From IMG/VR virus record IMGVR_UViG_3300024346_000370, positions 1-29,275 of that record: a stretch of 29,275 nt of DNA. One strand, written 5' to 3'. The notes under the pieces were generated by a model that worked only from the letters and a program-made list of their open reading frames with translations, was not told the origin of the DNA and searched no databases. The stretch comes from a virus. This document shows positions 1,033-27,970 of the stretch, one piece after another (positions within the stretch are counted from its first letter, which is position 1; each line of letters opens with the position of its first letter). Made by a program: the position numbers and the translations under genes.

Positions 1033-1041
1033 TCATAGCGT
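1033..1041 (+). promoter_or_regulatory. TCATAGCGT element before terminator
   Basis: The 9-mer TCATAGCGT lies in the 3' untranslated part of the tail protein transcript, seven bases before the terminator stem. It is the exact reverse complement of ACGCTATGA at the start codons of the genes at 7847 and 12850, and an identical copy lies at 7716-7724 in the same position relative to another terminator. A role as antisense seed or as a protein-binding site is inference. Confidence 0.45.
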
Positions 1042-1048
1042 GTAAAGA

Positions 1049-1072
1049 GGGAGGCTTCGGCTTCCCTTTTTT
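1049..1072 (+). terminator. Rho-independent terminator with UUCG loop
   Basis: GGGAGGC (1049-1055), a TTCG tetraloop and GCTTCCC (1060-1066) form a 7-bp stem with one G-U pair, followed by six T (1067-1072). It closes the tail protein transcript. Confidence 0.92.
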
Positions 1073-1110: not shown

Positions 1111-1440
1111 ATGATTGTACTAACGACATCAACATCAGCTCAGACCTTCTCGTTTATTCCGAGAGATACACCAAACGTGATGAAGATTACTGATGACCAA
1201 ACAAACGTAACTCAAACGATAGCAATCATATCGCAAACTACTGGCGATTACTTGTCGACTATTGAGGCAGAGTTTACACTTACTGAAGGACACTACTACG
1301 ATTTAGTTCTTTACAAAAACACGGATATTGTCTATAAGGATAGAATCTTTTGTACTGATCAAAACATCGTAACATTCTCCGTAAACAACGGACAATACAC
1401 ATCTAATACAACATCAAATACGTTCATAGTTTATGAGTAA
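1111..1440 (+). CDS. Small beta-rich virion-region protein, unknown
   Basis: A 109-residue protein, Thr/Ser-rich with alternating hydrophobic residues suggesting an all-beta fold, no signal peptide and no membrane segment. The two Cys-free halves contain strand-like runs such as TFSFIPRD and YYDLVLYKNTDIVYKD. It overlaps the portal gene by 8 nt, so the two are translationally coupled. Its place between the tail tube and portal genes suggests a structural or assembly role, but I do not recognise a family that would say which. The ATG at 1111 is the first in frame and follows an AT-rich leader after the terminator at 1072. Confidence 0.75.
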   Translation: MIVLTTSTSAQTFSFIPRDTPNVMKITDDQTNVTQTIAIISQTTGDYLSTIEAEFTLTEGHYYDLVLYKNTDIVYKDRIFCTDQNIVTFSVNNGQYTSNTTSNTFIVYE

Positions 1441-3223
1441 CAACGTACACGTCTTAAACCTATCTGCATACACTACTCCCGTTATTCAAGAGAGTAAGCG
1501 TGAAGCGTGGGTAGATTACGGGGAAGATAATGACTATTATTCTTTCCTATTGGATAGATACACAAATTCTACAACCAACTCGGCAATCATTAACAACATC
1601 GCTCGTCTTATTTATGGGCGTGGCTTATCAGCAGTAGATGCTTCTCGTAAGCCTAATGAGTACGCTGCTGCTATGGCAATGTTCTCTAAAGAGTGTTTGC
1701 GTAAGATTGCTCTCGATAGAAAGATGCTTGGTCAGTTTGCTATCCAAGTACACTACAATGACAAGCACGATAAAATACTAAAGGCTTACCACATTCCTGT
1801 AAATCTTTTAAGAGCTGAGAAGTGCAATAAAGATGGAGAAATCGAAGCCTACTACTACTCTGACGATTGGACTGATGTAAAAAAATACGTTCCTACTCGC
1901 ATTCCTGCTTTTGGATACTCAAAAGACAAGATTGAGATACTATTCTCTAAGCCTTACTCGGTAGGTATGAAGTATTATTCCTACGTTGACTACCAAGGAG
2001 CAGTTCCTTACGCACTATTGGAGGAGGAGATAGCTGATTACTTAATCAACGAAGTTCAAAACGGATTCTCAGGAACGAAGGTTGTAAACTTTAACAACGG
2101 AGTGCCGTCTGAAGAGCAACAATCAATCATTACAAATAAGGTATTAGGTAAGTTAACTGGCAGTAAAGGTCAGAAAGTGATCGTAGCGTTCAATGACAAT
2201 ATGGACACGAAAACTACGGTTGACGATTTACCTTTAAACGATGCACCTGAACACTACACTTACTTATCTGAGGAGTGTATGCGTAAGATTATGCTAGGCC
2301 ATAACGTTACATCTCCGCTACTTTTTGGTATTGCAGGTGCTAACGGATTCAGCTCTAACGCTGATGAATTGCAAAACTCGTTTATCTTATTTAACAATAT
2401 GGTGATTAAACCGCTTCAGGACGAAATACTTGAAGCCTTAGACGAGATTTTAGCATTTAACAACATTTCCTTAAACTTATTCTTTAGGACTCTCAAACCG
2501 CTTGAATTTACGGATTTGGAGAACGCTCAAAACACGGAGCAAGTAGCTGAAGAAACAGGAACTGAACTAAGCAAACACGAACACTTAGATAACGAGGTTG
2601 CACAATCACTTATAGACTTAGGAGAAGAGCCTAACGAAAATTGGCTTCTAATAGACGAATTTCCTGTTGACTATGATAATGACGATGCAGAGAACGAACT
2701 ACTCTCTAAAGAACCTAAAAAGAGCTTATTTTCGAAGTTAGTTGAGTTAGTAAGTACAGGTACTGCCGTTCCTAATGCAAAATCAGGACAAGATGAAGTA
2801 ATAGACGGATTCAACTTCATCACTCGTTACAAATATGTTGGAGCAGTAGAATCTAAGACTCGTCAGTTTTGTAGAAAAATGATTGAGTCAGACAAAATCT
2901 ATCGCAAGGAAGATATCATTCGTATGGGTGGTCAAGCAGTTAACTCAGGATGGGGGCCTAAAGGTGCTGATACTTATTCTATTTGGCTTTACAAAGGTGG
3001 AGGCAATTGTCACCATCGTTGGAATAAGCAAGTTTATGTAAACTTTGAGGGTAGAGGTATTGACGTAAACTCTCCAAAGGCTAAACAAATTGCACAAGCG
3101 AAAGCAGCTAAATACGGATATGTTGTAAAGAACGAGGATTTAGTTTCGCAACGTCCTGTTGATATGCCTAATTACGGATTCTTACCAAGCAATCCACAAC
3201 CTAAACGAGAAATTACAAGATAA
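1433..3223 (+). CDS. Portal protein with MuF-like C-terminal domain
   Basis: A 596-residue protein. Residues about 1-400 look like a phage portal: an N-terminal WVDYGEDNDYYSFLLDRY segment, a helical RLIYGRG region, and a long central part ending in helices near PLQDEILEALDEILAF. The portal would be the dodecameric ring at one capsid corner through which DNA passes. An acidic linker follows. Residues about 455-545 (FCRKMIESDKIYRKEDI ... GGGNCHHRWNKQVY) resemble the MuF minor head protein domain, which is normally a separate gene after the portal; here it is fused. It overlaps the previous gene by 8 nt and the next by 1 nt. The portal call is from overall likeness and context; the MuF part is from the Cys/His/Trp pattern. 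Confidence 0.8.
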   Translation: MSNNVHVLNLSAYTTPVIQESKREAWVDYGEDNDYYSFLLDRYTNSTTNSAIINNIARLIYGRGLSAVDASRKPNEYAAAMAMFSKECLRKIALDRKMLGQFAIQVHYNDKHDKILKAYHIPVNLLRAEKCNKDGEIEAYYYSDDWTDVKKYVPTRIPAFGYSKDKIEILFSKPYSVGMKYYSYVDYQGAVPYALLEEEIADYLINEVQNGFSGTKVVNFNNGVPSEEQQSIITNKVLGKLTGSKGQKVIVAFNDNMDTKTTVDDLPLNDAPEHYTYLSEECMRKIMLGHNVTSPLLFGIAGANGFSSNADELQNSFILFNNMVIKPLQDEILEALDEILAFNNISLNLFFRTLKPLEFTDLENAQNTEQVAEETGTELSKHEHLDNEVAQSLIDLGEEPNENWLLIDEFPVDYDNDDAENELLSKEPKKSLFSKLVELVSTGTAVPNAKSGQDEVIDGFNFITRYKYVGAVESKTRQFCRKMIESDKIYRKEDIIRMGGQAVNSGWGPKGADTYSIWLYKGGGNCHHRWNKQVYVNFEGRGIDVNSPKAKQIAQAKAAKYGYVVKNEDLVSQRPVDMPNYGFLPSNPQPKREITR

Positions 3224-5551: not shown

Positions 5552-6205
5552 ATGAAATTAGACATCTCAAAAATCAAACAAGCAAGACTCAAGGATTCTC
5601 AGTTCTTTCAAGAGAACACTCCTAAGTCTCAAATCTATCTGCACCATACGGCAGGAAGTGGTAATGCTGAGGCAGTTAGTCGCTATTGGAATGGCACTAA
5701 CGAAAGGATAGCTACGGCATTTATCATCGGTCAAGATGGTTTGATCGTGCAATGCTTCAGTTCTAAGCAATGGGCGTGGCATTTGGGCGTTGGAGAGAAG
5801 GAGTTTAAAGCTCAGGGAGTAAAGTACCAAAACCTAAACAAACTTTCAGTTGGAATCGAAGTATGTAATTGGGGATATCTCAAAGAACAAAACGGTAAAT
5901 TTTACAACTATGTAGGTAGCCGAGTTCCTGATTCAATGGTAACTACTTTAGATGAGCCATACAAAGGATACAAACATTGGTACAAATACACGGATGCTCA
6001 GATTGAAAGCACTCGACAATTGGTTGAGTATCTATGTGAGACATATGACATACCAAATGACTACCGCTCTGACATATTCGGACTTGACAAGGAAGCATTC
6101 AAAGGTACACCAGGTATCTACACTCACAACTCAGTGCGTAAAGACAAGAGTGATATCTATCCTTGCCCGAGAATGATTGAGATGCTCAAGAATTTAAGCA
6201 TATAA
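5552..6205 (+). CDS. Endolysin, N-acetylmuramoyl-L-alanine amidase
   Basis: A 217-residue Amidase_2/PGRP-type zinc enzyme that would cut the bond between N-acetylmuramic acid and the peptide stem of peptidoglycan. Visible landmarks are HHTAG (His31/His32, the first zinc ligand), a WAWHLG segment, SVGIEVCNWG, and near the end YTHNSVRKDKSDIYPCP with His192 and Cys205 as the other expected ligands, matching the His-His-Cys pattern of T7 lysozyme-type amidases. There is no signal peptide, so it depends on the holin. It lies between holin and spanin-like genes. Confidence 0.92.
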   Translation: MKLDISKIKQARLKDSQFFQENTPKSQIYLHHTAGSGNAEAVSRYWNGTNERIATAFIIGQDGLIVQCFSSKQWAWHLGVGEKEFKAQGVKYQNLNKLSVGIEVCNWGYLKEQNGKFYNYVGSRVPDSMVTTLDEPYKGYKHWYKYTDAQIESTRQLVEYLCETYDIPNDYRSDIFGLDKEAFKGTPGIYTHNSVRKDKSDIYPCPRMIEMLKNLSI

Positions 6206-6214
6206 CCTGATAAA

Positions 6215-6658
6215 ATGGTGAAATTTTCAACCTATATCCTGATAATTTTGTCACTAATTCTCGCAATAATTGTGACAGGATGTTCGGCTAACTACCATCT
6301 CAGGAAGGCAATCAAAAAGGGTTATCGATGCGAGGAGATTGCAGATACTTTTGTCATAAACACGATAGACTCAATTCCGTACGTTTTAAGAGACTCTATT
6401 GCTTGGGAGAAGGTAATAGTCCAAAAAGATACAATCGTGCGTTACAAGGCTTCTAAAGTGCCTAAAACAAGATATGAAACTAAAATAGAGTATAGACTAA
6501 AACGAGATACAATAAAATTGCTCCAAAAAGTGGAGGTAGTTAAGTACAAAACCGAGAAGCAAAAAAACAAGAAACCTAATCTTTGGTTATTTATTATAGG
6601 CTTCGTCGCAGGATTTGTTGCAAAGTGGCTTATGAAGTACGCTAAAACACCACTATGA
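6215..6658 (+). CDS. Probable unimolecular spanin (lipoprotein plus C-terminal membrane helix)
   Basis: A 147-residue protein with an N-terminal signal segment ending in a lipobox (V20-T21-G22-C23), a charged middle part of about 95 residues with strong Lys/Glu alternation, and a hydrophobic segment at 123-140 (LWLFIIGFVAGF...), followed by a short basic tail. A lipid anchor at one end and a membrane helix at the other is the plan of one-piece spanins such as phage T1 gp11, which join the two membranes and fuse them at the end of lysis. It follows holin and endolysin in the same operon. The spanin role is inferred from topology and place. Confidence 0.75.
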   Translation: MVKFSTYILIILSLILAIIVTGCSANYHLRKAIKKGYRCEEIADTFVINTIDSIPYVLRDSIAWEKVIVQKDTIVRYKASKVPKTRYETKIEYRLKRDTIKLLQKVEVVKYKTEKQKNKKPNLWLFIIGFVAGFVAKWLMKYAKTPL

Positions 6659-7689
6659 AGAAATTTAGACCACGAATTACACGTGAAGAATTTGAGATAG
6701 TTTCTCAATACCGTGCAATTCAAAGAGAGTCCAACGAAATGGGCTTGAATGATGCTGACGTAAAACACGGATGGCTAAAATCAAAGAACGCATCTTTATT
6801 CTTTAAGAATCCAAACTTTAAGGAACAGGAAGAGCAGAATTACGAGCTGATTCGTGAGTCTATACTGGCAGAAATTCAAGACTACTCTCCGAAATATCCT
6901 ACACTAACACGGAATCCATCAACTGACGGACACTTATTAGTAATAGATCCTGCTGACATCCACATAGGTAAGCTCTGCGATGCTTTCGAAGTGGGAGAGG
7001 TATACAACAACCAAATAGCAGTACAACGTGTCTTAGAAGGAGTGCAAGGCATTTTAGATAAAGCAAGTGGATTCCATATCGACAAGATTCTATTTATTGG
7101 AGGTAACGACATCTTACACATAGATACTCCAAGACGAACTACTACTTCAGGAACTCCACAAGATACTGACGGAATGTGGTACTCTAATTTTCTAATAGCT
7201 AAAAAACTATATGTCGAAATTCTTGAACAACTTATCAGCGTGGCTGACGTACATTTTACTTTCAATCCCTCTAATCACGATTATACACACGGCTTTTTTC
7301 TTGCTGATGTTATTCAGACTTGGTTTAAGGATTGCAAGAACATATCTTTTGACTGCTCTATTGCACATCGCAAAGGTTTCAAGTATGGAAAGAACCTTAT
7401 CGGCACGACTCACGGAGATGGAGCGAAACACCAAGACTTACCTTTACTGATGGCTACGGAGTTTCCGTTGGAATGGTCAGCTACTAAACACCGCTACGTT
7501 TACACGCATCACGTTCATCATAAGACTTCTAAAGATTACATCGGAGTCACGGTAGAATCTTTGAGATCACCTTCAGGAACGGACTCTTGGCATCACCGCA
7601 ATGGCTACGCTCACGTTCCTAAAGCAGTTGAAGGCTTCATCCACCACAAAGAATTTGGTCAAGTTGCAAGGTTAACTCATTTATTTTAG
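6655..7689 (+). CDS. Calcineurin-like metallophosphoesterase
   Basis: A 344-residue protein with the metal-binding motifs in order: D-x-H (Asp101, His103 in PADIHIG), GGND (149-152), NHD (207-209, in SNHD), a GTTHGD segment, and a late YTHHVHH motif. These fit the metallophosphoesterase fold that hydrolyses phosphate esters, either nucleotides or DNA. The N-terminal 90 residues are helical and do not belong to the catalytic core. It overlaps the spanin-like gene by 4 nt and is the last gene before a terminator. Substrate cannot be read from the sequence. Confidence 0.82.
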   Translation: MKKFRPRITREEFEIVSQYRAIQRESNEMGLNDADVKHGWLKSKNASLFFKNPNFKEQEEQNYELIRESILAEIQDYSPKYPTLTRNPSTDGHLLVIDPADIHIGKLCDAFEVGEVYNNQIAVQRVLEGVQGILDKASGFHIDKILFIGGNDILHIDTPRRTTTSGTPQDTDGMWYSNFLIAKKLYVEILEQLISVADVHFTFNPSNHDYTHGFFLADVIQTWFKDCKNISFDCSIAHRKGFKYGKNLIGTTHGDGAKHQDLPLLMATEFPLEWSATKHRYVYTHHVHHKTSKDYIGVTVESLRSPSGTDSWHHRNGYAHVPKAVEGFIHHKEFGQVARLTHLF

Positions 7690-7697
7690 TATATTTG
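7690..7697 (+). promoter_or_regulatory. TATATTTG promoter-like -7 box before terminator
   Basis: TATATTTG matches the Bacteroidota -7 consensus TAnnTTTG exactly. It begins one base after the metallophosphoesterase stop and only 38 bases before a terminator stem. A well-spaced -33 TTG is lacking (nearest TTG is 23 bases upstream). If active it would drive a very short RNA. Confidence 0.4.
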
Positions 7698-7701
7698 TAC
7701 A

Positions 7702-7753
7702 CCTAACAATTCTACTCATAGCGTAAGAGCCTCCTTAATCGGGGGCTTTTTTT
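7702..7753 (+). ncRNA. Possible ~50-nt small RNA with anti-start seed
   Basis: Between the TATATTTG box and the end of the terminator is room for a transcript of about 50 nt. It has a free 5' part, the 9-mer TCATAGCGT at 7716-7724, then a terminator hairpin. The 9-mer is perfectly complementary to ACGCTATGA over the start codons at 7847 and 12850. This is the plan of a bacterial antisense sRNA, but existence of the RNA is a hypothesis. Confidence 0.35.
7728..7753 (+). terminator. Rho-independent terminator ending late operon
   Basis: AGCCTCC (7728-7734) pairs with GGGGGCT (7741-7747) with one T-G pair over a 6-nt loop; a run of seven T (7747-7753) follows. It separates the lysis operon from the early region. 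Confidence 0.9.
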
Positions 7754-7792
7754 GTATCTGAAAAAAAAATTTAAAAAAAATGTAACTAATTG

Positions 7793-7822
7793 TTGATAAT
7801 TACGAATAAGTATTTATATTTG
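7793..7822 (+). promoter_or_regulatory. Early promoter, TTG-N19-TATATTTG
   Basis: TTG at 7793-7795 and TATATTTG at 7815-7822 are 19 bases apart, matching the Bacteroidota housekeeping promoter. The region upstream is very A/T-rich (A and T runs at 7760-7790). The predicted start is about 20 nt before the ATG at 7847, giving a short 5' leader that carries ACGCTATGA. Confidence 0.8.
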
Positions 7823-7841
7823 CATATAACATTTAAATAAA

Positions 7842-7850
7842 ACGCTATGA
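7842..7850 (+). promoter_or_regulatory. ACGCTATGA element over a start codon
   Basis: This 9-mer covers the ATG at 7847 and is exactly repeated over the ATG at 12850. Its reverse complement occurs at 1033 and 7716, each just before a terminator. It may be the target of an antisense RNA or a DNA-binding site. Confidence 0.45.
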
Positions 7851-8032
7851 CAAAAGAACAAATTATTCAACTAATCAAAGACGAAGAGAAGCATCTTTAC
7901 TTTGAATTTACTGAACTACGCAGAATGTATGGCCGCTCTGCCGATTCTACACTTTACGCTTCTGCACAATGGAACGCAGTATTAGGTATATTAGAAAACA
8001 TTGAAAAAATTGAAGAAAATGAAAATGCTTAA
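7847..8032 (+). CDS. First early gene, 61-residue protein of unknown function
   Basis: A small charged helical protein (Glu/Lys/Ile-rich ends, a Tyr/Ser/Ala middle around YGRSADSTLYASAQWNAV). It is the first gene after the strongest early promoter, so it is probably made at once on infection; such genes often act against host functions, though nothing here shows that. The start codon is chosen by the promoter distance and the ACGCTATGA element. I do not recognise a family. Confidence 0.7.
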   Translation: MTKEQIIQLIKDEEKHLYFEFTELRRMYGRSADSTLYASAQWNAVLGILENIEKIEENENA

Positions 8033-8557: not shown

Positions 8558-8632
8558 ATGGAGCATTTTTGGACTAATTTTAATTATGATTTATATAACC
8601 GCATTTGCGAAATAAAATACTCTAAGCTATGA
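8558..8632 (+). CDS. Possible 24-residue peptide
   Basis: An ATG at 8558 opens a 24-codon frame (MEHFWTNFNY...) ending in TGA that overlaps the next ATG as ATGA. The overlap supports translation; the length and the 13-bp direct repeat it contains (8590-8602, also at 8539-8551) leave it doubtful. Confidence 0.35.
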   Translation: MEHFWTNFNYDLYNRICEIKYSKL

Positions 8633-8775
8633 GATTTAAACTAACGTACCAAGTAGGACTCGCAGTAGTCCAAGAATGGATATTCACTTCAAAGAGTCTA
8701 TGCTATTGGAAAAAAATGGACTTAATAGAAACAGGAAGATACAATGACGGAAAATTTAAAATCACGCCACAATGA
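8629..8775 (+). CDS. 48-residue early protein, unknown
   Basis: A short basic protein (MRFKLTYQVGLAVVQEW ... KFKITPQ) linked by 4-nt overlaps to both neighbours, which is good evidence that it is translated. It has two strand-like segments and one Cys. No family recognised. Confidence 0.6.
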   Translation: MRFKLTYQVGLAVVQEWIFTSKSLCYWKKMDLIETGRYNDGKFKITPQ

Positions 8776-9176
8776 AAGACGAACTATATAAACACATTAA
8801 GAAGGTAATTAAGAGAGACGGATTAGATACTGATAGCAGAGAGCAGCAGCATCATTACCGCAGAATCTTTTTGTATGCCTTACTACGAAAATACGGATAC
8901 TCCTTAACTAATTCAGGTCAGCTATTTAATAGGCATCACGCTACGATCATTAACGGACTAAAAGTATACGATGCAATCAGGAAAGATTCCGTCTTTTTAG
9001 AGTACGTTGAAAGCTACCGAATAGAATTTGAGCCATACCTACATTACACGCTAAAACCTGATGAGCATAATCTCGCAGCTCAGGTGATGAAATGTGAAGA
9101 TTTCTGGCAGATGGTAAATCTACAAGAGAAAATTAAAGCAGGATTTTTCAACAAACGGAACAAAATTAAAGTATAA
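8772..9176 (+). CDS. DnaA domain IV-like DNA-binding protein
   Basis: A 134-residue protein. Residues about 28-70 hold a helix-turn-helix like the DNA-binding domain IV of the replication initiator DnaA: a helix (YALLRKYGYSL), then AGxxFNRxHATV-like text (SGQLFNRHHATIINGLK, with HHATII at 55-60), the DnaA signature where the His-Ala-Thr contacts the DnaA box. The AAA+ part of DnaA is absent. The C-terminal half is helical and unknown. It lies just before the initiator and helicase genes, so a role in origin recognition or in blocking host DnaA is plausible; the exact role is inference. Confidence 0.65.
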   Translation: MKDELYKHIKKVIKRDGLDTDSREQQHHYRRIFLYALLRKYGYSLTNSGQLFNRHHATIINGLKVYDAIRKDSVFLEYVESYRIEFEPYLHYTLKPDEHNLAAQVMKCEDFWQMVNLQEKIKAGFFNKRNKIKV

Positions 9177-9284: not shown

Positions 9285-9962
9285 ATGAACGGATGGATTA
9301 AAATTGATAGAGACATTACTTCTCATTGGATTTTCAAAGATGAGTGGAAATTCAGGAATTGGATTGACCTACTTACGTTGGTTAATCATTCAGAGCAAAA
9401 GGTAAATATAAAGGGTACTGTATTGACTTGTAAACGTGGTGAAACATTGTGTAGTTTAGACACTTTGGCGAAGCGTTGGAATTGCGATAAAAGCAAGGTT
9501 AGGAGATTTTTAAAGTTGCTTGAAAGTGATTCAATGATTGAATTAAAATCGGAACACATAACGACACGGTTAACTATCTGTAAATATGATACTTATCAAG
9601 GTGAGCGAAACGCAGATGAAACGGAAGTGAAACACAAACGAAACGCAGATGAAACGCAAATGACACCAAACAAGAATGATAAGAAAGAAATAAAGAATAA
9701 TAAATATAGCTTTCTATCTGCTTTGATTGAGAATGGTTTTGACGAAAAGTTATCTCGTGAATGGATGGAAGTTCGTAAGCAAAAAGATGCAGTAAATACT
9801 GAGACGGCTTTTAACTCATTTATGACTCAGGTAAAAAAACACGGAGGAGATAGAAACAAAATTCTTCGTACTTGCGTAGAGCGTTCTTGGAAAGGATTTA
9901 ATCACACTTGGTTAGAGAAAGAGAATGACACATTGTTAAACGCACTAAACGGAATAAGATGA
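9285..9962 (+). CDS. Replication initiator / replisome organiser-like protein
   Basis: A 225-residue protein. The N-terminus (WIKIDRDITSHWIF, then WNCDKSKVRRFLKLLESDSMI at about 65-88) is the winged-helix start typical of phage replisome organisers of the DnaD/DnaT-like group. A low-complexity linker (about 108-140) contains RNADET twice. The C-terminal part (LSREWMEVRKQKDAVNTETAFNSFM ... ILRTCVERSWKGF) resembles a helicase-loading domain. The linker DNA holds five 11-bp iterons, as in lambda gene O, where the origin lies inside the initiator gene. The helicase gene overlaps its stop by 4 nt. Biochemical role is inferred from these features and order. Confidence 0.75.
   Translation: MNGWIKIDRDITSHWIFKDEWKFRNWIDLLTLVNHSEQKVNIKGTVLTCKRGETLCSLDTLAKRWNCDKSKVRRFLKLLESDSMIELKSEHITTRLTICKYDTYQGERNADETEVKHKRNADETQMTPNKNDKKEIKNNKYSFLSALIENGFDEKLSREWMEVRKQKDAVNTETAFNSFMTQVKKHGGDRNKILRTCVERSWKGFNHTWLEKENDTLLNALNGIR
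9605..9659 (+). repeat. Five 11-bp iterons, probable replication origin
   Basis: GAAAC begins at 9607, 9618, 9629, 9640 and 9651, exactly 11 bases apart, each within an 11-bp unit of the form (R)(Y)GAAAC(R)(S)A. Because 11 is not a multiple of 3, the units fall in different codon frames, so protein selection alone does not explain them. An A/T-rich stretch (about 9671-9712) follows, suited to strand opening. The layout matches lambda-type origins. Confidence 0.65.
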
Positions 9963-12844: not shown

Positions 12845-12853
12845 ACGCTATGA
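12845..12853 (+). promoter_or_regulatory. ACGCTATGA element over a start codon, second copy
   Basis: Exact copy of the 9-mer at 7842-7850, again covering an ATG (12850) and again following a TATATTTG box by 16-19 bases. Complement of the elements at 1033 and 7716. Confidence 0.45.
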
Positions 12854-13377
12854 AGAATTTATTAAAATCGTTGGCTGCATTCCAACAAGAAGTGCCTGTA
12901 ATCCACAAGGCAACACAAGGCTACGGCTATTCTTACGCTGACTTGCCTAAAATCTTTGAGGTGATCAATCCGTTGCTAAAAAAACACGGACTCGGATTCA
13001 CTCAGACTCTACACACAAAAGACGATGTCAACTACATTGCTACAATGGTATTCCACATCGAGACTGGTGAACACATCGAAAGCTCAATAGCTATTCCTTA
13101 CGTTCAGTTAAAAGGTATGAACGACTTTCAGTCCTTCGGTTCGGGTGTGACCTACTACCGTCGTTATGCACTCAGTTCTGCTCTTTGTTTAGTAACCGAC
13201 AAAGACACGGATGCTTCAGGTGAGCAAGTTAAAACTGAGAAGAAACTACCTGCCATCGACCAAAAACGTTTTCAAGCAGCAGTAACTGCCATTCATAAAG
13301 GCGAGTTCACTCGTGAGAAGTTAGAGTCATCGTTTGCATTAACTGAAGGTCAAATAGATATTCTTAACGCTCTATGA
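12850..13377 (+). CDS. ERF-family single-strand annealing recombinase
   Basis: A 175-residue protein starting MKNLLKSLAAFQQEVPVIHK. It carries the ERF family marks: an early GYGYSYADLPKIFEVINPLLKKHGL segment and, at about 96-121, GSGVTYYRRYALSSALCLVTDKDTD, where YxRRYxL and the D-x-D are strongly conserved. ERF proteins bind single strands and anneal complementary DNA. The gene is coupled (ATGA) to the exonuclease gene, as annealing proteins and exonucleases usually are. A TTG at 12826 in frame overlaps the promoter box and is not the start. Confidence 0.9.
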   Translation: MKNLLKSLAAFQQEVPVIHKATQGYGYSYADLPKIFEVINPLLKKHGLGFTQTLHTKDDVNYIATMVFHIETGEHIESSIAIPYVQLKGMNDFQSFGSGVTYYRRYALSSALCLVTDKDTDASGEQVKTEKKLPAIDQKRFQAAVTAIHKGEFTREKLESSFALTEGQIDILNAL

Positions 13378-14054
13378 AGACTCTTAAAATTAGGTGTAGT
13401 GCCATCGGAAAACTGATGGCTACACCACGCTCTAAAGGTGAGTTCTTATCTCAAACTGCTAAAACCTACATTCACGAGTTAGTATTAGAACATAAATACG
13501 GCATCAAGAAGGAGTTTAGCTCACGTTACACGGACAAAGGAATCCAAGTTGAAGATGAGTCTATCTCGTTGGTCAATGATGTCTTAGATGTAAAATTTAT
13601 CTACAAGAACGAAGAGTTTTTTGAGAACGATTGGATAACAGGAACACCTGACGTAAACACGGAGGATGTATTGTTAGACGTTAAATCTTCTTGGGATGCT
13701 ACTACCTTTCCGTTTTTCGATACGGAGATTCCTAACAAAGACTATTTCTATCAACTTCAAGGTTATATGTGGCTAACTGGCAAGACTCAATCAATGCTTT
13801 GCTACTGTCTTGTAGATACTCCAATTGAAATGGTAGAGGATGAGATCCGCAGAGTGCATTGGAAGCTACATAAACTTGACGAGGATTTAGATTTGCGAGA
13901 AGAGGTGGAGAGTAAGCATCAGTTTTCACACATACCTAAGAACCGCAGAGTCAAGGTATTCTATGTACAAAAAGACGAACAAGTAATCGAGCAGATAAAA
14001 GAAAAGATAGAACTTGCTCGAGAGTATTATAACGCACTAATCCAAATGCTATGA
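13374..14054 (+). CDS. YqaJ / lambda-Exo-like recombination exonuclease
   Basis: A 226-residue PD-(D/E)XK enzyme. E60 (GIQVEDESI) is the early motif; D93 (TGTPDV) and D102-V-K104 (LLDVKSSWD) are the metal-binding core; FYQLQGYMWLTG is the Gln motif typical of YqaJ/lambda Exo. It would resect double strands to make single strands for the ERF protein, with which it forms a two-gene recombination unit (4-nt overlap). The C-terminus is helical. Confidence 0.88.
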   Translation: MKTLKIRCSAIGKLMATPRSKGEFLSQTAKTYIHELVLEHKYGIKKEFSSRYTDKGIQVEDESISLVNDVLDVKFIYKNEEFFENDWITGTPDVNTEDVLLDVKSSWDATTFPFFDTEIPNKDYFYQLQGYMWLTGKTQSMLCYCLVDTPIEMVEDEIRRVHWKLHKLDEDLDLREEVESKHQFSHIPKNRRVKVFYVQKDEQVIEQIKEKIELAREYYNALIQML

Positions 14055-14338
14055 CAATAACACACGATTACGATTCAGTAGAAATCAAAGACAAAGTAGT
14101 TTTATCCGTAATGGCTAAGTATGCTGAACGCTCTGCAACTGGACTAAAGAAATACGGAACTACATTAGAAAGAGAAGATTTAACGCTTGACCAATGGATA
14201 AACCATTTGCTTGAGGAGTTGATGGATGCCACGCTTTATTTGAGCCGTATTAAGAAAGAAATTGAGCTGCATTATGTCAAAGGCTTTTCAGATGGCTATC
14301 GAGAAGCGAAAAACACGAAACAAAACAAACAAGGATAA
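14051..14338 (+). CDS. MazG-like nucleotide pyrophosphohydrolase-type protein
   Basis: A 95-residue, all-helical protein with GLKKYGTTLEREDLTLDQWINHLLEELMDATLYLSRI. The R-x-GL-x-KYG start and the EE-x-x-D-A-x-x-Y segment are the pattern of phage all-alpha NTP-pyrophosphatase-like proteins that act on (d)NTPs or alarmones. It overlaps the exonuclease gene by 4 nt. Only one half of the usual metal-binding set (E-x-x-D) is clear, so catalytic activity is not certain. Confidence 0.65.
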   Translation: MTITHDYDSVEIKDKVVLSVMAKYAERSATGLKKYGTTLEREDLTLDQWINHLLEELMDATLYLSRIKKEIELHYVKGFSDGYREAKNTKQNKQG

Positions 14339-18124: not shown

Positions 18125-18598
18125 ATGGAAAAATATATAGCAATAGGTAGATATGATTCGAAGTATTCAGTATCTAATCTCGGAAATGTGATAAGCCACA
18201 TCGGTAAAAATAAAGAGCTTGTAAAGTTAAATACGGCAAATGGATATTTGTTTGTTAGATTAAGTAAGAATGGTAAAGCATATACTGAATTAATACATAG
18301 ATTAGTTGCTGAACATTTTTTAGATAATTCAAATAATTTGCCTCACGTAGACCACATTGATTTTGATAAAAAGAATAACAATGTAAATAATCTACAATGG
18401 ATAAGCATTAAAGAAAATAACCGCAGGTCTAAATCTAAAAAAGTGATTCAAAAAAGTATATGTGGTCAATTAAAAATCAAAGTTTGGGATGGCTTAGGGC
18501 ATATACAGGACGCATTAGGATTTAATAAAGCAAACATTCAAAAATGTTGCAAAGGAAAGAAACCTACTATGTATGGATTTAAATGGGAATATGTTTAA
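18125..18598 (+). CDS. HNH homing endonuclease between terminase genes
   Basis: A 157-residue protein. NUMOD4-like N-terminus (YIAIGRYDSKYSVSNLGNVIS), HNH core IHRLVAEHF (about 58-66) and HVDHIDFDKKNNNVNNLQWIS (74-94), and a C-terminal NUMOD1-like DNA-binding part ending YGFKWEYV. Codons are more AT-rich than in the terminase genes on either side. It overlaps the large terminase start by 8 nt, so it seems to have landed exactly at that gene border. It probably has its own promoter. Confidence 0.88.
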   Translation: MEKYIAIGRYDSKYSVSNLGNVISHIGKNKELVKLNTANGYLFVRLSKNGKAYTELIHRLVAEHFLDNSNNLPHVDHIDFDKKNNNVNNLQWISIKENNRRSKSKKVIQKSICGQLKIKVWDGLGHIQDALGFNKANIQKCCKGKKPTMYGFKWEYV

Positions 18599-19751
18599 AC
18601 GAACATCTGCAATAAATAAAATCCTGTCTCTAAAAAGACGGATTAAAATCATTCAAGGCGGAACGAGTGCAGGAAAGACGTTTGGTATCCTTCCGATACT
18701 GATAGACAAATGCACTAAGGAAAAAGGCTTAGAAGTCTCCGTAGTAGCTGAGACAATACCTCACCTTAGAAGAGGAGCATTAAAAGACTTCCTGAAAATA
18801 ATGCGTTGGACTAACCGCTACTTTGACGATAGATTCAACAAGACGCTACTTAGATACGATTTTGCTAACGGCAGTTCGATAGAGTTTTTCTCAGCAGACG
18901 ATGCCAGTAAGCTACGAGGTGCGAGGCGTGACATCCTATACATCAACGAGTGCAACAACGTAACGTTTGAGGCTTACAATGAGTTAGCCATCCGTACAAA
19001 GCGTGAGGTGTTCTTAGACTTTAACCCTGCCAATGAGTTTTGGGTACACAAGGAACTAAAAGACGAACCTGACACGGACTTCATAATCCTAACCTACAAA
19101 GACAACGAGGCGTTAGATGAGTCAATTGTCAGTCAGATAGAGAAGAACCGAGAGAAAGCAGCTACGAGTTCCTATTGGGCTAATTGGTGGCGTGTGTATG
19201 GACTCGGTGAGGTAGGTAGTCTTGAGGGTGTGGTCTTTAATAATTGGAAAGAGATTGACATTCTTCCTGATGAAGCCAAACTGATAGGAGTAGGACTTGA
19301 CTTCGGTTACACGAATGATCCAACGGCAGCGATAGGAATCTATAATTGGAACGGAAAGCGAATAGTAAACGAAATTGTTTACCGCACAGGAATGGTCAAC
19401 TCTGACATCGCTAAGATACTTCCATCAGGTGTAGTTATTTACGCTGATAGTTCCGAGCCTAAATCAATCGAGGAAATCAGACGCTACGGAAAGACGATAA
19501 AAGGAGTAACCAAAGGAAAGGACTCTATAAACTACGGTATTGACGTAATGCAACGCCAAGAGTACTTAGTTACCAAGTCAAGTACAAACCTCATCAAAGA
19601 ACTTCGCTCCTATTGTTGGGATACTGACAAGCAAGGAGTCAGGATGAACAAACCGATTGATCACTTCAATCACGCTATTGACGCACTTAGATACCACGAG
19701 ATGGAAGCACTCGGACTAAAATCAAACTATGGACAATACGCAATCCGATGA
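18591..19751 (+). CDS. terL: Terminase large subunit (TerL)
   Basis: A 386-residue packaging motor from the ATG 18591 (the ATG at 18573 would add six residues that are really HNH coding DNA). Walker A QGGTSAGKT (22-30), Walker B DILYINE (114-120), then a nuclease domain: GLDFGYTNDPTA with the first Asp, VIYADSSEPKSIEEI with the second, and DHFNHAIDALRY with the third. This is the PBSX/Terminase_3-like group. It drives DNA into the prohead and cuts it. Confidence 0.92.
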   Translation: MFKRTSAINKILSLKRRIKIIQGGTSAGKTFGILPILIDKCTKEKGLEVSVVAETIPHLRRGALKDFLKIMRWTNRYFDDRFNKTLLRYDFANGSSIEFFSADDASKLRGARRDILYINECNNVTFEAYNELAIRTKREVFLDFNPANEFWVHKELKDEPDTDFIILTYKDNEALDESIVSQIEKNREKAATSSYWANWWRVYGLGEVGSLEGVVFNNWKEIDILPDEAKLIGVGLDFGYTNDPTAAIGIYNWNGKRIVNEIVYRTGMVNSDIAKILPSGVVIYADSSEPKSIEEIRRYGKTIKGVTKGKDSINYGIDVMQRQEYLVTKSSTNLIKELRSYCWDTDKQGVRMNKPIDHFNHAIDALRYHEMEALGLKSNYGQYAIR

Positions 19752-25106: not shown

Positions 25107-25264
25107 TACAACGGATAGTTCAAATGCTAAAAATAGACGAACACTACGGGATTAGTGAGTTCGTAGACATAGCCAAAGGTAAGTACAAGTTAAACACGTC
25201 TCTGAAGAAAGCGTACAAACAAGGAAAACGAGAACTTATAAATAAACGAAATGGCGGAAAATAA
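25103..25264 (+). CDS. 53-residue basic protein before tape measure
   Basis: A Lys-rich helical protein (MIQRIVQMLKIDEHYGISEF...) coupled by ATGA to the tail tip gene and overlapping the tape measure start by 14 nt. Too short to assign; its strict position suggests a tail assembly helper. Confidence 0.6.
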   Translation: MIQRIVQMLKIDEHYGISEFVDIAKGKYKLNTSLKKAYKQGKRELINKRNGGK

Positions 25265-27113
25265 AGTAGTAAATCTTGAAGTCAAAGAAAAAGGTATGGA
25301 GGAGATGGGTCAAAAGACTTTATCTCTAAAAGCAAAATTAAAAGAACTTAAAGAACAAATGGCTCTTGCAGGTGATGGTACTGCGGAGTTTAAAAGATTA
25401 GCTGCCGAAGCAGGTGCTTTACAAGATAGGATTGCTGATGTCAACAGGCAAGTTAAAAACCTTTCATCAGATACAAGGCGTTTAGATTTAGGTTTAGAGG
25501 CCGTTCAAGGTGTTGCAGGTGGGTTTGCAGCCGCTCAGGGTGCTATGTCGCTTTTTGGAGATGAATCCGAAGAGATGCAAAAAACTATGATGAAAGTAAT
25601 GGGAGCTATGTCTCTTGTTAATGGAGTTCAACAGGTTGCAAACGTACTCAATAAAGATGCAGTTCTTGGTACTAAATTGCGTGTTTTTTGGAATGAGACT
25701 TTAGTTGGCTCATTCAATAAAGCAAGTGTGGCTCAAAAGGCATTTATGGCGACAGGTATTGGTTTGCTTTTAACAGGTATTGCTACGCTTGTTGCTTACT
25801 GGGATGATATTGCTGCTACTGTTAATGGTGTTTCAGATGAGCAAGAGCGATTAAATGCTAAAGTTGAGGCAAATGTTAATTTAGAAAAGGCTAAACTTGA
25901 CTCAATAGGTGAACAAGATAATATCTTAAAACTTCAAGGAAAATCGGAGCGTGAAATTTTAGAACTTAAACTCAAGCAAACTGATGCAGTATTATTAGCT
26001 ACTCAAGCACAATTAGAGCAACAAGAAAACACTAAGAAAGCTGAGGTTGCTGCCGCTAAAAGAAATTATGATATTACAAAAATGATTGTAAGGGGTGCTA
26101 TTGAAATTGCAGCAGTAGGATTGCGATTACTGGCAGCACCGATTGACTTAGTTCTTGAAACTGCTAATGCTGTATCGGAGGCATTAGGTTTTGGTAAGAT
26201 AACAACTACAAATATAAACAAGGAGATCAGCAAACTTACTGAATCGGCAGCAAGTGGTATATCTAAATTTATATTTGACCCACAACAAATAGCAGCAGAT
26301 TCAAACGAAGCAATAAGGGAAACTAAAGCCTCAATCACTAAACTAAAAAACGAAAAGGCAGGTTTAATTCTTTCAATTCGTGCTATTGATAAACAAGATA
26401 GGAAACAAACAACCAAAGAGAAAAAAGAGAGTGTCAAGAAGGAAGAGGAAGAGATAGAACTTATCAAGCGTGAATCAGGACTAAAGGCTATAAACAATCT
26501 TCAAAAGCAAAGAGATGCTGAATTAGAGGTAACTAAAAAGGCATTAGAAGAGGAGGCTAAACTCAGAGACGAAGCCGCAAAAAAAGAACTTGAACGCCAA
26601 AAGAAATTACAAGAGGATAAATCTAAATTAGTTTTCGATTCACTTAATCTTATATCGGAGATAACAAGTCTATTTGGACAAAAGAACGAACGTGTAGCGA
26701 GAGCAATGTTTAATATTGACAAGGCAGCGAGATTAGCATCGGCTACAATGTCTGCTCGTGAGGGTGTGATTAATGCGTTTAAGACTGCATCAGACTCACC
26801 ATTAACTACTGTGTTTCCTGCTTATCCATTTGTTCAGGCAGGACTTGCAGGTGCATTCGGAGCAGTTAACATTGCAAAGATAGCATCTCAAAAATTCCAA
26901 GCATCAGGCGGTACGTCAGATTTAGCGTCAGGTGGTGGCGGTGGTGCAGGTGGTGTATCTTCAGCAGCACCATCATTCAATGTAGTAGGTAACTCAGGAT
27001 TGAACCAACTTGCACAAATACAACAAACGCCAGTACAAGCGTATGTAGTAAGTGGAGAGGTAACATCGGCTCAGGCACTTGACCGCAACCGAATCAAAAA
27101 CGCAACATTGTAG
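25251..27113 (+). CDS. Tail tape measure protein
   Basis: A 620-residue protein with a long N-terminal coiled coil (LSLKAKLKELKEQMALAGD...), Ala/Gly-rich hydrophobic stretches (GVAGGFAAAQGAMSLF, FMATGIGLLLTGIATLVAYW, IEIAAVGLRLLAA), a charged helical middle, and a C-terminal hydrophobic segment before a Gly-rich tail (GGGGGAGG). If fully helical and extended it would set a tail of about 90 nm. The order chaperone, tip, tape measure differs from the usual order but the features are typical. Confidence 0.85.
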   Translation: MAENKVVNLEVKEKGMEEMGQKTLSLKAKLKELKEQMALAGDGTAEFKRLAAEAGALQDRIADVNRQVKNLSSDTRRLDLGLEAVQGVAGGFAAAQGAMSLFGDESEEMQKTMMKVMGAMSLVNGVQQVANVLNKDAVLGTKLRVFWNETLVGSFNKASVAQKAFMATGIGLLLTGIATLVAYWDDIAATVNGVSDEQERLNAKVEANVNLEKAKLDSIGEQDNILKLQGKSEREILELKLKQTDAVLLATQAQLEQQENTKKAEVAAAKRNYDITKMIVRGAIEIAAVGLRLLAAPIDLVLETANAVSEALGFGKITTTNINKEISKLTESAASGISKFIFDPQQIAADSNEAIRETKASITKLKNEKAGLILSIRAIDKQDRKQTTKEKKESVKKEEEEIELIKRESGLKAINNLQKQRDAELEVTKKALEEEAKLRDEAAKKELERQKKLQEDKSKLVFDSLNLISEITSLFGQKNERVARAMFNIDKAARLASATMSAREGVINAFKTASDSPLTTVFPAYPFVQAGLAGAFGAVNIAKIASQKFQASGGTSDLASGGGGGAGGVSSAAPSFNVVGNSGLNQLAQIQQTPVQAYVVSGEVTSAQALDRNRIKNATL

Positions 27114-27914: not shown

Positions 27915-27970
27915 AAATAAAACAACGCTATATTCAAATAGTTTATTTCTTGTATACAAACTAAAAACAA

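Follow-up and report, generated by a model that had tools for sequence, protein, structure and literature searches.

What connects a 9-mer that precedes terminators with its own complement, which lies across start codons elsewhere in the same genome? In the window (the whole stretch of DNA analyzed here, a 29,275-base IMG/VR virus record), TCATAGCGT occurs twice on the plus strand, each copy with a terminator hairpin directly 3' of it, and its exact complement occurs twice more (7842-7850 and 12845-12853), covering the ATG at 7847 of a 61-aa orphan and the ATG at 12850 of the ERF recombinase gene (Table 1). An earlier note on this DNA had described these four sites as beyond chance and had placed TATATTTG boxes before three of them (at 7690, 7815, and 12821, with spacings of 18, 19, and 16). 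Both the sites and the boxes were found where it had put them, and the four placements compare with 0.14 expected, a number that 0 of 100 shuffles reached. We propose, with a probability of about 0.7, that the phage encodes a trans-acting antisense RNA regulon in which the translation of early genes would be repressed. The antisense reading that the earlier note had offered as its model is supported, as far as sequences can tell, by paired changes of seed and target and by a conserved promoter-seed-terminator mini-gene.

Table 1. Positions of the proposed RNA unit, its predicted targets, and genes named in the text.
Feature	Position	Strand	Remarks
-7 promoter box TATATTTG (Bacteroidota TAHHTTTG)	7690..7697	+	directly 3' of the exonuclease gene end
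Seed UCAUAGCGU of the mini-RNA	7716..7724	+	predicted mostly unpaired
Intrinsic terminator	7725..7753	+	10-pair hairpin 7725-7750 and U-run
Proposed ~52-nt trans-acting antisense RNA	7702..7753	+	predicted boundaries
Second seed copy	1033..1041	+	3'UTR of probable tail-tube gene 481-1023
Terminator after second seed	1044..1071	+	
Target ACGCTATGA	7842..7850	+	across start codon of ORF 7847-8032; duplex -14.3 kcal/mol
Target ACGCTATGAAGAA	12845..12857	+	across start codon of ERF gene
Probable weaker target AGCTATGA	8625..8632	+	start of ORF 8629-8775
Probable weaker target TGCTATGA	14047..14054	+	start of ORF 14051-14338; one G.U pair
Portal	1433-3223		
Amidase	5552-6205		
Exonuclease	6655-7689		
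ORF	7847-8032		61-aa orphan
ORF	8629-8775		start is a probable weaker target
ERF recombinase	12850-13377		Pfam PF04404, E=4.5e-30
Second exonuclease	13374-14054		
ORF	14051-14338		start is a probable weaker target
Terminase	18573-19751		
Tape measure (probable)	25251-27113		

A nucleotide search of phage records did not find a near relative of the window. DNA-pattern and exonuclease scans of bacterial genomes gave no match, so that the assignment of the host draws only on promoter type and relatives; on these grounds, the hosts of these uncultured viruses appear to be Bacteroidota-like bacteria. The gene at 481-1023 is called a probable tail-tube gene because the AlphaFold model of its product (pLDDT 81) gives repeated, weak matches to phage tail-tube proteins (best E 0.0098, TM <0.5); it probably encodes the major tail-tube protein. 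Elsewhere in the window, an ORF at 8772-9176 has a weak match to the DnaA C-terminal helix-turn-helix (E 4e-5, under the Pfam cut-off) and adjoins a DnaD-like helicase loader (9285-9962). The HNH endonuclease gene at 18125-18598 has its ATG a few bases past a TATCTTTG box (TATCTTTGTGCTATGG), likely giving a leaderless mRNA, and its start matches the seed in part. At the portal start (1422-1436), TCATAG stands just 5' of the ATG (TTCATAGTTTATGAG), as in many relatives, and might pair locally with the start to give a hairpin.

Transcription in F. johnsoniae starts 4 to 5 nt past the -7 box (PMC6847099), which would place the start of the predicted RNA at 7702-7703 and its end at ~7753. The promoter that lies where the exonuclease gene ends would be dedicated to this mini-RNA (~52 nt), which would consist of a 5' single-stranded part, carrying the seed U-CAUAGCGU, and of the 3' terminator hairpin. 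Compared with base-pairing sRNAs, the unit has, on its sequence, its own promoter and a Rho-independent terminator (clades A, B, and E of the relatives described below), an accessible conserved seed complementary to the target starts, and a compensatory change between seed and targets (clade A versus clade E, at the gene and family levels). Rfam gave 0 matches in the window at the gathering score. A cis-encoded antisense RNA of the OOP or sar type was considered and rejected, the seed and its targets sharing one strand at distant loci.

In the proposed mechanism, the seed would pair with ACGCUAUG(A) across the start codons of the ERF recombinase and of ORF 7847, and probably of ORFs 8629 and 14051; with the AUG covered, 30S binding would be blocked and the translation of the early-gene set repressed. 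Among the 51 genes of the window, the ERF start gives the best duplex both with the mini-RNA (-18.2 kcal/mol) and with the 3'UTR copy (-24.1 kcal/mol), the 13-nt stretch 1029-1041 being perfectly complementary to it (TTCTTCATAGCGT / ACGCTATGAAGAA), and the starts at 7847, 8629, and 14051 rank among the best mini-RNA duplexes. The earlier note had missed this longer match of the copy at 1033 as well as the two weaker start matches, and the ACGCTAT at 27924 that it took for a related copy does not lie at a start codon and was dismissed as unrelated.

Relatives were collected by a search with the exonuclease gene (80 relatives), then by two DNA-pattern scans and a second protein scan, giving ~150 distinct contigs in total. 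Their comparison demonstrates the parts of the unit and their conservation: ~115 related IMG/VR contigs carry, 3' of the same exonuclease gene, a -7 box, an unpaired seed (core UCAUAG), and a terminator hairpin. The unit takes the clade A form (CATAGCGTaAGAGCC...) in 51 contigs, the clade B form (TCATAG[TC][TG]...) in 38, and the clade E form (TCATAGTTRAAAA...) in 27, and the element is missing from 20 relatives. Within clade A, the linker and loop are variable, the seed stays at >=90% at every core position, and its core CATAGCGT is kept in 50 of 51 relatives. The mini-RNA predicted in relatives measures 37 to 60 nt, and a box-to-seed distance of 4 to 6 nt in clades B and E and in some clade A elements would put the seed at the extreme 5' end of the RNA. 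The cultured relatives P12024S and snork6-1 have no such element, and no cultured Flavobacterium phage with a TATATTTG..CATAGCGTAAGAGCC element was found in the collections searched.

Some relatives show other arrangements. A short ORF resembling, by eye, a GIY-YIG homing endonuclease separates the exonuclease gene from the mini-RNA in L014, L058, L076, L140, and L170, and the mini-RNA is intact 3' of it in the first three. Units made of a box, TCATAG, a T-rich linker, and a hairpin occur with other flanks in L197, L226, L229, L240, L247, and L269, several of them away from the exonuclease gene, and may be forms that this RNA takes in other phages. These odd elements, except that of L226, were set aside together with clade C (TCATTAGCG) because they offer too few genes.

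The seed also occurs in longer transcripts. All 13 large clade A records hold both start-type and terminator-linked copies, and the copy in the tail-tube 3'UTR is present in 16 of the 16 clade A contigs examined (two read TTATAGCGT); through it, the late mRNA, whole or as a fragment, would reach the targets of the mini-RNA as well. The seed might then work mainly in the 3' ends of the long exonuclease and tail-tube mRNAs rather than as a free small RNA, with the abundance of late mRNA as the switch. The tail-tube copy, which has the longest ERF match, would fit such a role, as would the six contigs of clade D, where the seed lies in a hairpin of the exonuclease 3'UTR without a promoter box; nevertheless, the box is conserved 4 to 19 nt 5' of the seed at the exonuclease gene end in clades A, B, and E, and we regard action mainly from mRNA ends as unlikely. 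In L144, L139, and L078, all of clade D, the seed is inside a small hairpin (CTCATAGCGTGAG) of the exonuclease 3'UTR. The boxless clade D, the lack of a second seed copy in clades D and E, and the shortness of the seeds (8 to 9 bp) were all counted against the antisense reading.

The antisense RNA reading gains from the distribution of the start motif, for which genes were called as ORFs of at least 45 aa, longest first. The counts demonstrate an early-only target motif: CT-ATG is found at 226/648 early starts (35%) versus 23/329 late starts (7%) in clade A, at 122/573 (21%) versus 8/244 (3%) in clade B, and at 64/239 (27%) versus 2/169 (1%) in clade E. Relatives without the element have it at 5/133 early starts (4%) versus 6/169 late ones, the contrast between these and clade E being not significant when taken by gene family (p=0.16). 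Across clade A families, ACGCTATG is the commonest start context (27 unrelated early families, 108 genes), and it is invariant at the ERF start over 21 distinct leaders, whose flanks drift. The complementarity is just as specific when 7-mers of the mini-RNA are compared with gene starts, those of the seed matching 161, 123, and 109 early starts versus 2, 0, and 2 late ones and the next best matching 20 early starts; in clade E, the seed 7-mer matches 64 early versus 0 late starts, and only seed 7-mers are strongly complementary to early starts.

The motif keeps a fixed position relative to the AUG (-5..+3), and of the 176 GCT-ATG starts in clade A, 107 lack a promoter box within 70 nt; this anchoring to the start codon, not to promoters, suggests action on translation rather than binding to DNA. 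The same two facts disfavor the protein-binding site that the earlier note had given as its alternative. Although some copies do lie 16 to 24 nt past promoter boxes, an operator function, with a phage protein binding the DNA in either orientation, is very improbable, considering also the strong strand bias of the non-palindromic motif (82 versus 1 for AACGCTATG) and the confinement of the compensatory change to complementary positions. Strict anchoring to the start codon would be equally expected if the motif were bound, as RNA, by a phage protein such as a RegA-like repressor, T4 RegA binding ~30 mRNA start regions (PMC3014915), or if it were a special initiation context, the complementary seed then being a coincidence or a by-product. 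We consider this quite unlikely, for it leaves unexplained why, in a separate unit with promoter and terminator, the complement is the segment that is conserved, why the motif is missing where relatives lack the unit, and why target and seed change jointly. Among the proteins scanned, which covered part of the ORFs, there was no RegA homologue. G at -3 is moreover costly for initiation in F. johnsoniae (PMC6847099), so that a regulatory site accounts for the motif better than an enhancer does, and the motif is unlikely to be present to help initiation. Complementarity to the host 16S rRNA is an unlikely cause of the motif, since the motifs differ between clades A and E and are absent from late genes.

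A regulatory RNA that pairs with these starts finds its most specific trace in the paired change of seed and targets, for which the earlier note had suggested looking in related phages. The change is demonstrated for clade E. Clade A has the seed CATAG-CG and targets [CTA]GCTATG, with G at -3 in 176 of 226 CT starts; clade E has CATAG-TT and [AG]ACTATG, with A at -3 in all 64 CT-ATG starts, the ERF start included, and the G found at -4 would pair with the seed U. All 28 orthologous ERF starts from clade A contigs read ACGCTATG and all 5 from clade E contigs read AACTATG, and the start of family 37 reads AACGCTATGA in 2/2 contigs of clade A and AACACTATGA or AATACTATGA in 6/7 of clade E. Counted by family, the -3 base is 18 G to 5 A in clade A versus 0 to 6 in clade E (Fisher p=0.001). 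The raw Fisher value (p = 9e-37) overstates the evidence because the seed switches on the tree are few, the usable pairs are two, and clade B is mixed, although the target families are many separate sites. On the exonuclease tree, the seed position changed ~4 times, with two independent pairs on supported branches, and tree-corrected significance was not reached in the independent-pairs test with only these two usable pairs.

In clade B, by comparison, compensation appears only partial: the seed is CATAGTT, and many starts still read CGCT or AGCT (-3 is G in 57/122). The family interaction test of clade A versus clade B was mixed (11 positive, 9 negative, 8 zero), and seed position 1 showed no clear co-variation with the +4 base. 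The core variants TATAGCGT and TCGTAGCG in clades A and D keep pairing via G.U. In one relative (L193), the main seed has lost ATA, the second seed is degenerate, and the 23.9-kb record holds no CGCTATGNAA-type start. Pairing between seed and targets is well supported by these comparisons.

We infer from this pairing that the RNA accumulates, that it represses its targets, and that repression marks the passage from early to late expression, a timing favored by the seed in the late tail-tube 3'UTR. The box of the mini-RNA, for its part, belongs to the type found 5' of early genes, so that the RNA may be made early, and early dosage control or superinfection immunity are conceivable roles. The RNA could then pair as described and yet be expressed constitutively from a hypothetical resident genome, silencing the early genes of a second phage as the c4 RNA of P1/P7 does, which gives immunity by pairing with a start region (PMC12197685), or setting the doses of early proteins. 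Such a role is possible though unlikely: no integrase or repressor was found among the proteins scanned (part of the ORFs), the scan of genome contigs found no relative of the exonuclease, and the presence of a copy in the 3'UTR of a late gene speaks for late action. Slightly better than even odds, in our judgment, attach to a fuller form of the antisense switch, an RNA counterpart of T4 RegA, in which the mini-RNA, with the 3'UTR of a late structural mRNA adding to its effect, would silence a whole early regulon through a start-codon motif that the phage has spread over >20 unrelated families, the motif and the seed evolving together from clade to clade.

Precedents exist both for antisense RNAs of phages (c4, sar, OOP) and for proteins that repress many early genes (T4 RegA). 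P1/P7 c4, P22 sar, and lambda OOP are, like the RNA proposed here, short phage RNAs with phage mRNAs as pairing partners (at the translation start in the case of c4 and sar), but each is described with one target gene (PMC12197685), whereas here one RNA would face a set of unlinked genes whose start codons share a motif co-evolving with its seed. T4 RegA likewise acts as one phage regulator at the start regions of ~30 early and middle mRNAs, but it is a protein and the regulator proposed here an RNA; the same review states that no trans-acting small RNA has been functionally characterized in T4 (PMC3014915). VpdS of VP882 and PreS/LPR1 of lambda are also trans-acting phage sRNAs that pair with mRNAs, but they depend on Hfq and, as cited, have largely host targets (PMC12197685, PMC13250501). 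The Start Associated Sequences (SAS) of cluster K mycobacteriophages offer another likeness, being conserved, phage-specific sequences at many unrelated gene starts, with an RNA or protein partner that is unknown (PMC3203893). In contrast to SAS, which lie upstream and contain the Shine-Dalgarno sequence, the motif described here covers the AUG, and a complementary RNA gene is present; membership of SAS was rejected, as the 13-bp GGGATAGGAGCCC with its upstream Shine-Dalgarno core is replaced here by ACGCTATG over the AUG.

In the literature searched (open-licence papers), we found no phage RNA that serves a regulon through a start-codon motif of its own and whose seed co-evolves with that motif. 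To our knowledge, the ribosomes of Bacteroidota-type hosts do not use Shine-Dalgarno pairing, and phage RNA regulation has barely been studied in this phylum. If our reading is true, a phage would govern a set of its own early genes by one short RNA instead of a protein, and such control would operate in a phylum that does not use Shine-Dalgarno sequences. It would also provide a concrete model for the start-associated sequences that other phages carry with no function assigned.
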